From Nodosilinea sp. P-1105 (GTDB taxonomy: Bacteria; Cyanobacteriota; Cyanobacteriia; Phormidesmidales; Phormidesmidaceae): a DNA stretch of 64,000 nt. The notes under the pieces are model-generated. The model was not told the origin of the DNA. It made no database searches and worked only from the letters and a program-made list of their open reading frames with translations. Positions within the stretch are counted from its first letter, which is position 1. Each line of letters begins with the position of its first letter. Shown one piece after another: positions 1 through 39,089 of this stretch. Both the position numbers and the translations under genes were made by a program. Location of the stretch: NCBI RefSeq assembly GCF_012911975.1, contig NZ_SMDQ01000009.1, positions 62,001 to 126,000 of the forward strand, given 5' to 3'.

Positions 1-156
1 GAGAAACAACAAAGGTGAGAAACAACAAAGCCCCACAGACGCCAAACGGCGCTATGGGGCCAAAAGCACGCCAAATTAATCAATCAGGGGCTCTATACCA
101 AGTCCAGCTCGGGATCTGGTGTTTTCCCATAGGTAGAACGCCAGGTCTGGACTTGG
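1..156. repeat. Tandem repeat and two hairpins downstream of psaK
   Basis: The first 32 bases are two copies of GAGAAACAACAAAG. A hairpin follows, with GCCCCA at 30-35 against TGGGGC at 55-60 and an inner GCC/GGC pair. A second inverted repeat pairs CCAAGTCCAG (98-107) with CTGGACTTGG (147-156), just beyond the psaK stop. The second could serve as the psaK terminator, but it has no U-tract. No gene is supported here. Confidence 0.45.
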
Positions 157-5887: not shown

Positions 5888-6051
5888 TAGTGTTCAGTCA
5901 AAAAAATAATGACGGGAGATGTGACTTAGGGTTCACGGTTTAAGGTTTACGGTTTGCGGTATACGGTTCTGCCATTCACCTTGCACCGTATACCGTTCAC
6001 CTTGCACCGCAGACCCGGTTGACCCGTCACTTCTGGCTTGACAGACCACTA
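5888..6051. mobile_element. MITE copy 1, TA target duplication
   Basis: The element is 164 bp including TA duplications at 5888-5889 and 6050-6051. Its left end starts AGTGTTCAGTCAA and its right end, reverse-complemented, reads AGTGGTCTGTCAA. A second matched block (TGACGGG) lies 9 bases further in. The interior is short reiterated motifs (GGTTTACGGTTT, GGTATACGGT with its inverse ACCGTATACC). TA insertion fits IS630/Tc1-mariner-type transposition in trans. It ends 4 bases from the stop of the HTH gene. Related copies are at 25944 and 38957. Confidence 0.75.
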
Positions 6052-25355: not shown

Positions 25356-25790
25356 ATGTCTGACACTCGTCCTGCTTCTGTAACTAAGATCGTCAGCCGC
25401 TTTCAGAAAACGGCTGACCCTAAACGACGCTATCAGCAGTTGCTGTGGTTCGCGAAGAAGTTAGATCCGATGCCTGAGGACCAGAAGGTGCCGGAGAATA
25501 AGGTGCCTGGGTGTGTTTCTCAGGTATTTGTGATCGCTCATCTAGAAGACGGTAGGGTGATGTACCAGGCTGACTCTGATGCGCAGATTACCAAAGGATT
25601 GGTGGCGTTGCTGGTGAAAGCACTGAATGGCCTTACCCCTGAGGAAATAACGGCCTTAGCCCCTGATTTTATTCAAGAGACTCAGTTGGATGTGAGTCTG
25701 ACGCCATCGCGGGCTAATGGGTTCTACAACATCTTTAAAGCTATGCAGCAAAGGGCTGCGACGTTGGCGGCGTCGGTGGATATGGCCTAG
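25356..25790 (+). CDS. sufE: SufE cysteine-desulfurase activator
   Basis: SufE accepts persulfide sulfur from SufS and passes it to the SufBCD Fe-S scaffold. The 144-residue protein has the acceptor cysteine in VPGCVSQV (Cys53), preceded by RRYQQLLWFAKKLDPMPEDQK and followed by the family segment KGLVALLVKALNGLTPEEI. It returns to GC-rich core codon use directly after the island. A dispersed repeat starts 4 bases after its stop. Confidence 0.95.
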   Translation: MSDTRPASVTKIVSRFQKTADPKRRYQQLLWFAKKLDPMPEDQKVPENKVPGCVSQVFVIAHLEDGRVMYQADSDAQITKGLVALLVKALNGLTPEEITALAPDFIQETQLDVSLTPSRANGFYNIFKAMQQRAATLAASVDMA

Positions 25791-25860: not shown

Positions 25861-25900
25861 TTGACCGCCTGATGTCGCTGAGCATTCCATATAGTATTTC

Positions 25901-26283
25901 AAAATCCCAGGGTTCTGCCCTCAGATACCTCAAAGATCCTGGCTAGTGCAGCGTCAAGTCTTGAGTTTAGGGTTTCCAGATATAGAGATTTAGTGGCATC
26001 AAGGTCCGAAATCCCCTCCTTTGGAGGCCTGTGCTGTATAGCCTGCGGCATGGCTTTGCTAGCGTGTAGCGGCCCCGGAGGGGCAACCTGTCGAAGTAGG
26101 TAGGGGTGGGTCAAGCGAGCCCGAAGGGACCCACCCCGCCCTCTGGGCACCCCTCCGTGAGAGGGGATGAAAGGTCCTGATGTGTTGAAGCAACCTCCCT
26201 GAAGCTTAAAAAGCTTTTGCAAAGCACTTACCCTAATTTTTAGCCTTGACAGACCACTAGTCGGCTCAAGAACCCGGGGATTA
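25901..26283. repeat. Palindromic repeat (family of 31934-32021) split by a MITE
   Basis: The left half carries ATCCCAGGGTTCT (25904-25916) plus TGCCCTCAGATACC. The right half, after the MITE, carries AGAACCCGGGGAT (26269-26281). The unbroken relative at 31934-32021 has AGATCCCAGGGTTCT and AGAACCCTGGGATCT in the same order with the same TGCCCTCGGATACC between. The halves are therefore one repeat interrupted at a TA. Confidence 0.7.
25944..26259. mobile_element. MITE copy 2, nested in another repeat
   Basis: The 316-bp element has TA at 25944-25945 and 26258-26259. The left end reads GTGCAGCGTCAAGTCTTGA. The right end, reverse-complemented, reads GTGGTCTGTCAAGGCTAAAA, and both are followed by a TTAGGGT block. 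A minus-strand frame (25899-26222) with low-complexity composition runs through it and is not credible as a gene. The host repeat on both sides gives the pre-insertion sequence. Confidence 0.75.
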
Positions 26284-26294
26284 GTACCGGTGTT

Positions 26295-26747
26295 CTAGGG
26301 GTTGATAACTGTGGTTTGATGTGGCAAGCTCTCGTGTGAATGGGCAACGGATGGCTCAGACTGGGGCTTGTCCTTGTCTTCAGAGCCCTCCGAGGGCTGG
26401 TGCTTCCGGCGGTTTTGCAGCAACTCCTTAAGGGGATCCCGTTTTTCTTCGGTCATGTGAATCTGGATGTTGGGGCCTGATCGGGCTAGCCGAATCACCA
26501 TGCCGTCTTCTACAGGCATTTCCGTAATTCGTTTACCCTCTAAGTAGGTACCATTGGTCCCTATACTTTTGACCAGCCACCCGATTTCGGATCGATGTAT
26601 TTCGACGTGGTGCCGCGACACAACGGCACTGTAGAGGATGACGTTATTGTCTGTGGAACGACCTAACCGGATGACAGTTTCTTGATCAAACGACCAATGC
26701 TGGACCGGAGTTTTATGCAAAGGGTGTAGCAGCGAGAGGGTAATCAC
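26295..26747 (-). CDS. FHA-domain protein
   Basis: FHA domains bind phosphothreonine peptides. The 150-residue protein has the domain at about 25-95 with the full signature: IRLGRS (GRS), NNVIL, VSRHHVEIH, and NGTYLEGKRI. A hydrophilic tail of about 50 residues (KRDPLKELLQNRRKHQ then a Ser/Glu-rich part) follows. The start is GTG at 26747. It stands alone next to the split repeat. Its partner, presumably a Ser/Thr kinase substrate, is not in the window. Confidence 0.85.
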   Translation of the reverse strand: MITLSLLHPLHKTPVQHWSFDQETVIRLGRSTDNNVILYSAVVSRHHVEIHRSEIGWLVKSIGTNGTYLEGKRITEMPVEDGMVIRLARSGPNIQIHMTEEKRDPLKELLQNRRKHQPSEGSEDKDKPQSEPSVAHSHESLPHQTTVINP

Positions 26748-29108: not shown

Positions 29109-31928
29109 ATGGATTTGGTGCTTTGCCACACAACTGCTGACTTTGATACCCTGGGGGCCGCTGTCGGACTCGCGAGATTACGCCCTGGGGCGAGGGTGGT
29201 GCTAACAGGGGGATGCCATCCGACGGTGCAACGGTTTGTGGCGTTTCACCGAGATGAATTTCCATTGATTGAGCGGCGGGCCGTGAGCCCCGACCAGATT
29301 CGCTCGTTGACCCTGGTGGATGCCCAACAGCCGGAACGCTTTGGCCCTGCGGCGGAATGGATTACCCAGGCCCCAGGGGAGACTGTGCCGATTACGATTT
29401 ATGATCATCACCCTCCAGGGGAGGCGGCAACGACCACTCGGCACCTGGTGATTGATCGGGTGGGGGCCACTACCACCCTGGTGGTGGAGGCGATGCAACG
29501 GCAGGCGATCGCGCCCACCGGGGTGGAGGCTACGGTGATGGCTTTGGGGATTCATAGCGATACCGGTTCGCTGACCTTTGAACAAACAACGGCGCGAGAT
29601 GCTTTGGCCCTGGCTTGGTTGATGCAGCAGGGGGCGAGTATGCAAGTGATTGCTGAATTTGTGGAGCCGGGGCTGCCGCCGATGCTGCAGGATTTGCTAT
29701 CAACGGCGATGGAGGCGTTGCAGACTGAGACGATTCGAGGCTATGGGCTAGCCTGGGTGGTGCTGCCCGTGGAGGGCTATATTCCTGGGTTGTCTGGATT
29801 GGCGGAACGTTTAATTTCTCTGGCGGATGTGGATAGTTTGCTGTTGGCGGCTTACTATCCCACCAAAGAGTCGGCCCAAGGACTGGCCCAGGCGGGGGAT
29901 GACTTTCCCCATCCGCCGACCAACTATAAGCTGATGTTGATTGGCCGTGCCCAAGGACGTATGGGGTTGGGGTTAGGGATTGACTGGGGCTCGATTTTGA
30001 CTCCCCTGGGGGGGGGTGGTCACCCCCCAGCGGCGGCGGCTACCCTCACCACCCAGAACCCCACTCAGGTGGTAGACCAGGCACTAGCAGAGGCGCGATC
30101 GCAGTTGCCCCACCCCCCCACCGCCCGCGACTTGATGTCGTCGCCTGTGCGCACCATTCGCCCCGATACCCCCATGGCAGAAGCCCAGCGCATTCTGCTG
30201 CGCTATGGCCATTCGGGCTTGTCGGTTGTGGACCCTGAGGGCCAGTTAGTGGGGGTGATTTCCCGGCGAGATTTGGACCTGGCTCTGCACCATGGCCTCA
30301 GTCATGCCCCGGTGAAAGGGTATATGGCCACCAACCTGAAGACCATTACCCCCGATACTCCCCTAGAAGCTATTGAGCATCTGATGGTCACCTACGACAT
30401 TGGCCGCCTGCCCGTGCTCGATCAGCAGAGTTTAGTCGGGATTGTCACCCGCACGGACCTGCTGCGCCATCTGCACCAGGCCCAGGTGGCCAATGGTCTC
30501 AATCACCAGGCGGGAAAGGTGCTCTCCCCAAGGCCCCAACTGCCCCCCGCCCCACCCCTACGCCACCGGCTAGATGACACCCTCAACCCCCAGCTCAGGG
30601 TAGTCCTGGGACAGATTGTAACAGCAGCCCAGGACCAGGGCTGGCATCTTTACCTGGTGGGCGGGGCCGTGCGGGATCTACTGCTGGCCGACGGGCAAGC
30701 GGCCGTCACCTTGCCGGATTTAGATTTGGTGGTGGATGGGTTTTACCAGGCGGCCCGGGTGGGGGCAGGGGTGGATTTGGCTGAAGCGGTGAAGGCCAAT
30801 TTCCCTGAGGTAGAGCTTCAGGTGCATGGACGGTTTCAAACGGCCTCCTTGGTGTGGCGCAAAGACTTGGACCATCCCCTGGCTGGGGTGATGATCGACA
30901 TTGCCACCGCTCGCACTGAGTTTTATCCTTACCCGGCGGCTAACCCAGAGGTGGAAGCCAGTTCCATTCAGCAGGATCTGTACCGGCGAGATTTTACGAT
31001 CAACGCCATGGCCCTGCGGTTGACCCAACCGGGGGCAGGGCAATTGCTGGACTATTTTGGCGGACTGATGGATGTGCGCCAGGGGGTGGTTCGTGTCCTC
31101 CATGCCAGCAGCTTTATTGAAGACCCTACCCGCATCTATCGGGCAGTGCGGTTTGCGGTGCGCTTGGGGTTTAGCCTTGATCCCCAAACCCAGGGCTATA
31201 TCCACCACGCTCTGGATAGCGGTGTCTATGCCCAGATGCAGCGCCAGGTCAAACGGGTGCCTGCCCTGCAGGTGCGGCTCAAGCATGAGCTGAAGTACAT
31301 TCTGGAAGCCCCCTATTGGCAGTCGGCCCTAGAGCTACTGGATAACCTCCGGGCGCTCAGGTGTATCCATGATGATCTGGCGATGACAGCTGCTCTGTGG
31401 ACGCAACTGCGGCGGATGACGCGATGGGTGGAGCGGTTTGGCTGGACCCACCGCTTTATCCCTTGGCAGATGCGCCTGGAAGTATTGCTGGCGGCGGTGC
31501 CGGCAGGCGATCGCGTCACCATTGCCGCCGCTCTGCAACTGCCTGACAGCAGCATCCAGCGTTTAGAGCAGCTTCAGTCCCTGGAGCAGGACTGGCTGCA
31601 TCACTTTGCCACCCCCCAACCCCCCAGCCAGATCTATCAGGCCCTGGTACAGGCGGACACCCCCACCCTGTTGCTGGTCAGTGCCCGCCATCCCCGTACC
31701 CTGGGCCCATTGATTTGGCGTTACTTAACCCACCTGTCCCAGGTGCAGCCTTTGATCGATGGGCATCGGCTAAAAACCCTTGGTTACCGGCCAGGGCCGA
31801 CATTTCGCCCGATGTTGAACGCTGTTTTTGCCGCTCAGCTAGATGGCCTGGTGCAAACAGAAGCAGATGCCCTGAATTTTCTGGCCCAGCACTACCCGCT
31901 GACTAGCGGTCCTAAGCCAGCCCCCTAG
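29109..31928 (+). CDS. DHH phosphoesterase - CBS pair - tRNA nucleotidyltransferase fusion
   Basis: The 939 residues have three parts. At 1 to about 325 is a DHH/DHHA1 phosphoesterase, with ADFDTLGAAVGL, YDHHPPG near 98 and GGGGHPPAAAA near 300. Two CBS motifs lie at about 337-455. From about 505 comes a class II polymerase-beta domain: LYLVGGAVRDLLL, the metal site LPDLDLVVDG, RRDFTINAMAL, and FIEDPTRIYRAVRFAVRLGF. The last part should add CCA, or A, to tRNA 3' ends. This gene is needed here at least for the tRNA-Gly, which lacks CCA. The DHH part may hydrolyse short RNA or cyclic dinucleotides. The architecture is known in cyanobacteria and some thermophiles. Confidence 0.93.
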   Translation: MDLVLCHTTADFDTLGAAVGLARLRPGARVVLTGGCHPTVQRFVAFHRDEFPLIERRAVSPDQIRSLTLVDAQQPERFGPAAEWITQAPGETVPITIYDHHPPGEAATTTRHLVIDRVGATTTLVVEAMQRQAIAPTGVEATVMALGIHSDTGSLTFEQTTARDALALAWLMQQGASMQVIAEFVEPGLPPMLQDLLSTAMEALQTETIRGYGLAWVVLPVEGYIPGLSGLAERLISLADVDSLLLAAYYPTKESAQGLAQAGDDFPHPPTNYKLMLIGRAQGRMGLGLGIDWGSILTPLGGGGHPPAAAATLTTQNPTQVVDQALAEARSQLPHPPTARDLMSSPVRTIRPDTPMAEAQRILLRYGHSGLSVVDPEGQLVGVISRRDLDLALHHGLSHAPVKGYMATNLKTITPDTPLEAIEHLMVTYDIGRLPVLDQQSLVGIVTRTDLLRHLHQAQVANGLNHQAGKVLSPRPQLPPAPPLRHRLDDTLNPQLRVVLGQIVTAAQDQGWHLYLVGGAVRDLLLADGQAAVTLPDLDLVVDGFYQAARVGAGVDLAEAVKANFPEVELQVHGRFQTASLVWRKDLDHPLAGVMIDIATARTEFYPYPAANPEVEASSIQQDLYRRDFTINAMALRLTQPGAGQLLDYFGGLMDVRQGVVRVLHASSFIEDPTRIYRAVRFAVRLGFSLDPQTQGYIHHALDSGVYAQMQRQVKRVPALQVRLKHELKYILEAPYWQSALELLDNLRALRCIHDDLAMTAALWTQLRRMTRWVERFGWTHRFIPWQMRLEVLLAAVPAGDRVTIAAALQLPDSSIQRLEQLQSLEQDWLHHFATPQPPSQIYQALVQADTPTLLLVSARHPRTLGPLIWRYLTHLSQVQPLIDGHRLKTLGYRPGPTFRPMLNAVFAAQLDGLVQTEADALNFLAQHYPLTSGPKPAP

Positions 31929-31933
31929 AACGC

Positions 31934-32021
31934 CGGTACAGATCCCAGGGTTCTGCCCTCGGATACCCCAAAATTCCTGGCCAACTAGCCCAAGAACCCT
32001 GGGATCTTGACGTACTGTACC
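31934..32021. terminator. Extended palindrome between convergent genes
   Basis: AGATCCCAGGGTTCT (31940-31954) and AGAACCCTGGGATCT (31993-32007) are perfect 15-bp arms, flanked by GGTACA and TGTACC (31934-31939, 32016-32021). It fills the space between the convergent CCA-transferase and dxr genes and may act as a bidirectional terminator. It also belongs to the repeat family of 25901-26283. Confidence 0.55.
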
Positions 32022-32034
32022 GATGCCCTAGCGA

Positions 32035-37563: not shown

Positions 37564-38976
37564 ATGACCCAGACCATCCCCGACCAAGCTTCTGCTATGA
37601 CCCCACCCCAAAATGCCCTGGCCCTGGTTGCCGCTGTTAAACAGGGACACCTGTCGGCCCTAGCAGTGGTTGAAGCGACCCTGACCACCCTGCAAACGCA
37701 AAATCCTGCCCTTAACTGCTTTACAGCGATCACCGCCGATCGCGCCAGGCAGCAGGCCCAAGCGATCGATCAGGCGATCGCCGCTGGCCAAGACCCCGGT
37801 CCCTTAGCTGGCGTCCCCTTTGCAGTCAAAAATCTGTTTGATATTCAGGGAATAACCACCCTAGCGGGGGCCAAACTGAACCAGGGCAATCCCCCAGCGA
37901 GCCAAGATGCTACCGCGATCGCTCGTTTGACTGGGGCCGGGGCCATTCTGGTGGGGGCGCTAAACATGGACGAGTACGCCTACGGCTTTGTCACCATCAA
38001 CCACCACTTTGGCACCACCCCCAACCCCCACGATCCCCGCCGGATGGCGGGCGGGTCGTCCGGCGGGTCGGCGGCGGCGGTAGCCGCCGGGTTGGTACCC
38101 GTTACCCTGGGGTCCGACACCAATGGGTCCATTCGAGTACCAGCGTCCCTCTGTGGAGTATATGGCCTAAAGCCCACCTACGGACGACTATCCAGGGCTG
38201 GGGCCTACCTGTTTGCCAGCAGCCTTGACCACGTGGGGCCGTTCGGTCGGTCGGTGACCGATGTGGCGGCGGTCTATGACGCTCTGCAGGGGCCAGACCC
38301 GGCCGATCCCGTATGTACCCAACGGTCCCCAGAACCCGTTACTCCAGCCTTAAATCAGGGCATTCAGGGTTTGCGCTTGGCCCGCTTGGGCGGACATTTC
38401 GATCGCGGCATGGAGCCCGGGGTGCGCACAGTCGTTGATGACGTAGCCCAGGCCCTAGGGGTTACAGCCCAGGTAGACTTTCCCGAAACCCACCGGGCCA
38501 GAGCCGCCGCTTACCTGATCACCGCCTGCGAAGGCAGCCAACTGCACCTGGACCGCCTGCGTCACCACCCCATGGATTTTGACCCCGCCACCCGCGATCG
38601 CTTTTTAGCCGGAACCATGCTCCCGGCTGCCTGGTATGTGCAGGCCCAGCGGTTAAGACGCTGGTACCGCGATCGCGTTCGAGACATCCTGCAGTCCTAC
38701 GATGTACTGTTGGCCCCCACGACCCCCTGCGTCGCCCCACCCTTAGACCAAACCACGCTGACTATCGATGGCGACACCTTTCCCCTGCGCCCCCACCTGG
38801 GGTTTTATACCCAGCCCCTCTCGTTTATCGGCCTGCCGGTGCTGTCGGTGCCGATCCACCGCCCTGGCCAGTTGCCCGTCGGGGTTCAATTGGTGGCTGC
38901 GCCATATCAGGAGGTCAAGCTGTTTCAGGTGGCCGCCTGGTTAGAACAGCAAAGCCTAGTGCAGCGTCAAGACTAA
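37564..38976 (+). CDS. atzE: AtzE-type amidase
   Basis: This amidase-signature enzyme (GatA-like) hydrolyses 1-carboxybiuret or a related compound. In 470 residues the Ser-cisSer-Lys triad is present: Lys in FAVKNLFD, cis-Ser in AGGSSGGSAAA, Ser in GSDTNGSIRVPAS. The ATG at 37564 avoids overlap with atzG; an ATG at 37597 is also possible. The last codons and the stop come from a MITE whose left TA lies at 38957-38958, so the native C-terminus has been replaced by a few residues (VQRQD). Confidence 0.9.
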   Translation: MTQTIPDQASAMTPPQNALALVAAVKQGHLSALAVVEATLTTLQTQNPALNCFTAITADRARQQAQAIDQAIAAGQDPGPLAGVPFAVKNLFDIQGITTLAGAKLNQGNPPASQDATAIARLTGAGAILVGALNMDEYAYGFVTINHHFGTTPNPHDPRRMAGGSSGGSAAAVAAGLVPVTLGSDTNGSIRVPASLCGVYGLKPTYGRLSRAGAYLFASSLDHVGPFGRSVTDVAAVYDALQGPDPADPVCTQRSPEPVTPALNQGIQGLRLARLGGHFDRGMEPGVRTVVDDVAQALGVTAQVDFPETHRARAAAYLITACEGSQLHLDRLRHHPMDFDPATRDRFLAGTMLPAAWYVQAQRLRRWYRDRVRDILQSYDVLLAPTTPCVAPPLDQTTLTIDGDTFPLRPHLGFYTQPLSFIGLPVLSVPIHRPGQLPVGVQLVAAPYQEVKLFQVAAWLEQQSLVQRQD

Positions 38977-39089
38977 AAATTAGGGTCCCGTAGGTTGGGT
39001 GAAACGCAGTGAAACCCAACAGCAGTCAGCCTTGTTGGGTTCTGCTGACGCGCCACCCAACCTACAAATTTAGAATTGACAGACCACTA
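38957..39089. mobile_element. MITE copy 3, overlapping the atzE 3' end
   Basis: The 133-bp element has TA at 38957-38958 and 39088-39089. The left end reads GTGCAGCGTCAAGACTAAAA and the right end, reverse-complemented, reads GTGGTCTGTCAATTCTAAAT. The interior is another common cyanobacterial palindrome (GTAGGTTGGGTGAAACGCAG... with its inverse ending CCCAACCTAC). It provides the atzE stop codon. Confidence 0.75.

Follow-up and report, generated by a model that had tools for sequence, protein, structure and literature searches.

The window analysed here is the whole stretch of 64,000 nucleotides from Nodosilinea sp. P-1105, whose genome is a 6.0-Mb draft in 195 contigs. Between a sufE-like gene and a gene for an FHA-domain protein, the window holds a nest of short repeats (Table 1). 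The two flanking genes are about 71–78% identical in relatives. In the one relative whose gene order was read (L062), another gene, recognised by eye and presumably encoding SAM synthetase, lies between them. A search of 57 genomes, 46 of which matched some part of the stretch (many just in genes or short repeats), found no empty site at strain level for the nest as a whole.

Table 1. Features of the nest, its flanking genes and the uninterrupted outer element in the window
Feature	Positions	Strand	Evidence or remark
sufE-like gene, across the nest from the FHA-domain gene	25356..25790	+	Pfam SufE, E 3.6e-43
Outer MITE-like element, interrupted	25878..26298 (25878-25943 + 26260-26298, plus one TA)	.	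Gapless rejoined core against 8 uninterrupted copies; borders of 45 other copies
Left TA, target duplication	25944..25945	.	In-register rejoin
Inner MITE, 316 bp including both TA copies	25944..26259	+	Ends TAGTGCAGCGTCAAG and (reverse complement) TAGTGGTCTGTCAAG
Repeat E, first copy, split (26011-26027 + 26099-26112)	26011..26112	+	Intact in 244-bp inner copies; E also in other contexts
Repeat A, 23 bp, split (26028-26036 + 26085-26098)	26028..26098	+	Intact A in 266-267-bp copies L008-L011
Repeat B, 48 bp, inside A	26037..26084	+	In copies of the L002-L007 type; ends uncertain by 1-2 bases
Second copy, E-like, in opposite orientation to the first one	26128..26168	-	Both can pair as a hairpin core
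Right TA, target duplication	26258..26259	.	In-register rejoin
FHA-domain gene	26295..26747	-	TAG stop 26295-26297 is the border of the outer element
Uninterrupted outer element, CTAG at both ends	31926..32030	+	First TAG is the stop of ORF 29109-31928

The original prediction described two halves of a palindromic repeat, a 316-bp insert bordered by TA between them, and an uninterrupted relative at 31934-32021. On inspection all of these are present in the sequence, and the relative is real, with limits now widened to 105 bp. When the two flanks were joined with one TA, the resulting 67 bases showed no internal gap against eight uninterrupted outer copies. The left half agreed with the outer family consensus at 39 of 44 bases, and the right half fitted it at 18 of 23 bases in register versus at most 9 at 12 other offsets. 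The left end of the interrupted element is decayed (CTGAG for CTAGAG at about 25878, in an alignment made by eye), and its right end reads CTAG (26295-26298). An empty relative closer than the one in the window was found at another locus (L045), where the insertion point reads CTAG as it does here. Recombination between two outer copies could also have placed the halves around an inner element, since outer copies are numerous and several loci have an outer and an inner element abutting at a CTAG that both share. However, an exact-register join to one full repeat with a single leftover TA would not be predicted from such an event, and we consider it very unlikely.

Borders were compared in fetched loci, using 45 outer copies of 90–120 bp with both ends and 33 inner rows of 130–420 bp, among which one locus (L015) is included twice. 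A TA bordered both ends of the element in 42 of the 45 outer copies and in 25 of the 33 inner rows; the other 8 inner rows lacked it on at least one side, so that consistent TA borders hold for most, but not all, inner copies. Together with the in-register rejoin, these counts bear out the predicted insertion of the inner element at TA with duplication of TA. The predicted relative age was also borne out. The outer element is older than the inner one because of the nesting itself, and the outer copy differs from its consensus at 10 of 67 bases versus 14 of 315 for the inner copy. For comparison, 30 of 37 other 105-bp outer copies have 2–16 such differences (seven unlike variants have 24–38), and seven full-length inner copies differ by 2.2–6.3%. 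The nesting is confirmed and amounts to a MITE inside a MITE, with the inner unit carrying still smaller nested repeats; the prediction had the nesting right but missed that the host is itself MITE-like and that two further repeats are nested within the insert.

The outer element is 105 bp long, exists in many copies, and has inverted ends and TA/CTAG borders as in IS630-type MITEs. The host motif has 3 matches in the window (2 of them without mismatch) versus a shuffle mean of 0.12, and its 64-bp core gave at least 43 BLAST matches in the genome. One outer-end pattern had 67 matches in the genome versus 14 for the reversed control, and the hairpin fold of the element has a z-score of -5.1. 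No IS630 partner for the outer element was found among 192 loci outside this genome, where its ends had no more matches than in a shuffle (9 and 2 versus 7 and 5, up to 3 mismatches). The exception among these loci was one 105-bp-like outer copy with a different core in a genome of the same genus (G013, L118:803-908). The outer element probably moved in the same way as the inner one. Some outer elements (L002, L192, L210, L219, L223 and L178) contain, always at one site, an additional insert of roughly 112 bp or longer and form a derived subfamily.

The inner element is multi-copy and short and has no transposase gene, as is typical of an IS630-derived MITE. The sole listed ORF over it (107 aa, 25899-26222) spans the insertion border. 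The 316-bp insert gave at least 59 BLAST matches in the genome, at least seven of them full length at 90–100% identity, itself included. Its ends, which had been predicted to match, are alike at 21 of 30 bases in the window copy and at 23 of 30 in the consensus; the inverted-repeat search of the window reported one pair at the inner unit, located in the core, and none at the ends. The inner right-end pattern had 42 matches in the genome and 0 for the reversed control. In the class, it occurred in 12 of 388 genomes, belonging to 5 of 159 genera, and the reversed control again gave 0. When 27 elements from other species or genera (75–495 bp, some truncated) were compared by eye, similar ends were seen around several different cores. 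Two other MITEs of the window have ends of this kind. One (5888-6051, 164 bp) has one end of the inner right-end type, and its other end, TAGTGTTCAGTCAA, is an IS630 end in G012. The other (38957-39089, 133 bp) has inner-type ends around a different hairpin core (GTAGGTTGGGTG...CCACCCAACCTAC) and is present in relatives too.

A genome scan using two transposases gave 39 loci, and ends were computed for 32 of them, with seven partial ones omitted. Among these 32 loci, L278 carries TAGTGCAGCGTCAAG, and relatives of its transposase are found in 27 of 63 genomes of the family. An IS630 element in a genome of the same genus (G008) matches the inner left-end consensus at 28 of 30 bases and the window copy at 27, and the IS630 copies in G026, G027, G103 and G135 match the left-end consensus at 22–27 of 30. 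The element in G027 (L339) has two intact ORFs, whereas the G008 copy is broken. No close match to the right end was found on any IS; the best were 16 of 20 (L269) and 13 of 15. Thus the inner MITE shares its ends with IS630 elements on the left side only. Of the predicted IS630/Tc1 origin, the left-end part stands and the right-end part is less clear, so that the inner MITE may combine two end types or derive from an IS not yet seen.

No partner transposase was found in this draft genome, which has three DDE_3 loci and in which the best relative of the L278 transposase is 46% identical. Among the matches listed, no DDE_3 place of the genus lies beside an inner-end match. When the ends of the three own and 29 genus DDE_3 loci were examined, they were clearly related in L138 only, and the own locus L092 reached 15 of 20. 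We infer that the inner MITE was probably cut and pasted in trans by an IS630 transposase that is now absent or unassembled here. The IS630 of L138 (743-2090 and beyond) stands between two MITEs that share its CTAG, and its two ORFs meet at an A run, suggesting frameshifting.

Both families are located mostly in CTAG, the known preference of IS630 (Tenzen and Ohtsubo 1991, via the reference list of PMC2170065). Among the 45 outer rows, C precedes TA in 44 and G follows it in 42; among the 33 inner rows, the corresponding numbers are 25 and 27. In the background, 205 of the 3112 TA of the window fall in CTAG. TA belonged to the pattern of the border scan, which makes the C and G on either side the more stringent test. 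In 13 junctions, one of them (L028) doubtful, MITEs of different families stand back to back on one shared CTAG, compared with a rough estimate of 4–5, and we make no strong claim on this number; the loci include L041, L201, L219, L002, L013, L018 and L177.

The outer element covers the TAG stop of the FHA-domain gene and restores TAG, because it starts with G after TA. Of the 13 relatives in which this gene end was read, 12 have the stop near the same codon, 4 of them in CTAG. In all, 20 of 146 border rows (19 distinct) terminate an ORF of at least 100 codons, versus 11 of 410 CTAG site-strands in the window. Such an excess could mean that MITEs actively target TAG stop codons. However, few CTAGs of the window (46–60 of 205) are non-coding, so that the excess is explicable by the loss of gene-breaking insertions, which by estimate yields a similar share, and we give almost no credence to active aiming. 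The IS630 of G008 likewise starts at the TAG stop of an upstream ORF (L341:1482-1484).

The 316-bp unit is a derived form, made of a 244-bp MITE plus the 23-bp repeat A split by the 48-bp repeat B. The inner copies fall into sizes of 243–247 bp, 265–267 bp (with A) and 313–316 bp (with A and B), and others have further inserts; one row of 265 bp has a duplicated end in place of A. The A pattern has 47 matches in the genome and 8 in 4 of 25 other genomes of the genus, and the B pattern has 25 matches in the genome and none in those 25. In the copies read, A is located in E except at L328 and at L335 and L336, which resemble coding sequence. In each of the 13 distinct places read, B lies within A, and the inner MITE copies have it at that same site. 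The hairpin core of a 244-bp inner copy folds with a z-score of -3.7. This fold, and the exchange of cores between contexts in at least three E copies with mixed flanks, could suggest that mobility has been over-read and that recombination spread the 316-bp unit as a structured repeat of a regulatory or REP-like kind. Constant ends around variable cores, the CTAG bias, the IS630-like left end and the lack of any match in Rfam argue against such a repeat, which we regard as highly improbable.

Seventy E copies were parsed for their flanks and contents. Forty were flanked by the MITE (12 empty, 20 with A, 8 with B), 26 had other flanks (5 empty, 15 with A, 6 with B) and 4 were mixed, one of unclear state. 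All three states are therefore present in both flank classes. The alleles within a few bases of A differ between the classes, TTT/T being found in 34 of 40 MITE-flanked copies and TGG/C in 19 of 26 others. On a tree of 30 MITE arm pairs, with 16 weak branches among its 27 inner ones and with 5 of 35 rows dropped (truncated arms, or L166 with a false A label), the three states need 12 changes (minimum 2), compared with a shuffle mean of 14.5, and 19 of 200 shuffles were as low. The state without A alone is partly clustered on this tree (16 of 500 shuffles as low). The distribution of A and B thus follows the arm tree only weakly, and the pattern may stem from repeated insertion or from loss, either of them precise, or from conversion of short tracts.

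Spread of A and B solely by gene conversion between E copies, without insertion, has a real chance of being correct, if somewhat short of an even one. It agrees with the existence of E copies with mixed flanks and with the fact that, among the copies read, the sites occupied by A and B never vary, except for A at the three loci named above. However, the nearby alleles are linked to the flanks and yet every state occurs in both classes, so the converted tracts would need to be very short. Tentatively, and with a chance clearly below even, A and B may instead each be mobile in their own right and insert with precision, with a single target site for A in E and for B in A, in any carrier of E. The MITE would then serve as a vehicle, with ends constant across genera and a core that gathers repeats.

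The locus is very probably a nest of non-autonomous transposable elements built by successive insertions. In the proposed sequence, a 105-bp MITE-like element would first have entered the CTAG formed by the stop of the FHA-domain gene, regenerating TAG. Later, an IS630-type MITE would have inserted at a TA within this element, in a local CTAG, and duplicated the TA. The core of this MITE is a hairpin of two inverted E repeats; in this copy E holds A and A holds B, and the arrival order of A and B is inferred.

In kind, the nesting is ordinary, namely that of IS630-type MITEs with a CTAG bias. As in the IS630/Tc1/mariner group (IS630, ISY100), the target TA is duplicated, CTAG is preferred, the terminal inverted repeat starts with TAGTG and the transposase of the partner group has two ORFs. 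Unlike these elements, the inner element has no transposase here and its two ends differ. Nezha is reportedly an IS630-type cyanobacterial MITE with a TA target and, compared by description rather than by sequence, is alike in these respects. An excerpt of PMC3542288 reports that the genome of Anabaena sp. 90 has many intergenic MITEs but no IS to match them, which resembles the present case; no related IS is named in that excerpt, whereas here one is found in relatives. Literature searches on nested MITEs, stop codons, cyanobacterial MITEs and SDRs brought up no report recognised as this case, and searches on the 14-base core of A or on Leptolyngbya MITEs found no paper. What stands out is how cleanly the layers are nested one within another in a single bacterial genome; because this genome has the inner layers in both empty and filled form, their relative order can be read directly. 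The analysis also links a cyanobacterial MITE that was an orphan to a specific subgroup of IS630.

For A and B, the closest published system appears to be the Nostoc SDRs, which Elhai et al. are said to have described in 2008 as repeats of about 21–27 bp inside mini-transposons and inside one another. By description rather than by sequence, A would fit in its length (23 bp), its dispersal (47 pattern matches) and its nesting in E, whereas B is longer at 48 bp. REPINs depend on a RAYT transposase for their movement. They consist of a short repeat that occurs singly or as an inverted hairpin pair, according to an excerpt of PMC3116915, and E likewise occurs in both forms; unlike in REPINs, the E pair is housed in an IS630-type MITE. 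The copies with none, A, or A and B provide a natural test set for the spread of repeats shorter than 50 bp. In some copies (L300, L309, L026), B itself contains a further repeat, roughly 24 bp long (with GTCCTGAGCTTGTCGAAGGA), which forms a fifth layer. In most copies of repeat A (L310-L337), a T or C near the left end is matched by an A or G towards the right end, as it would be in a base pair, and a few copies have T with G.
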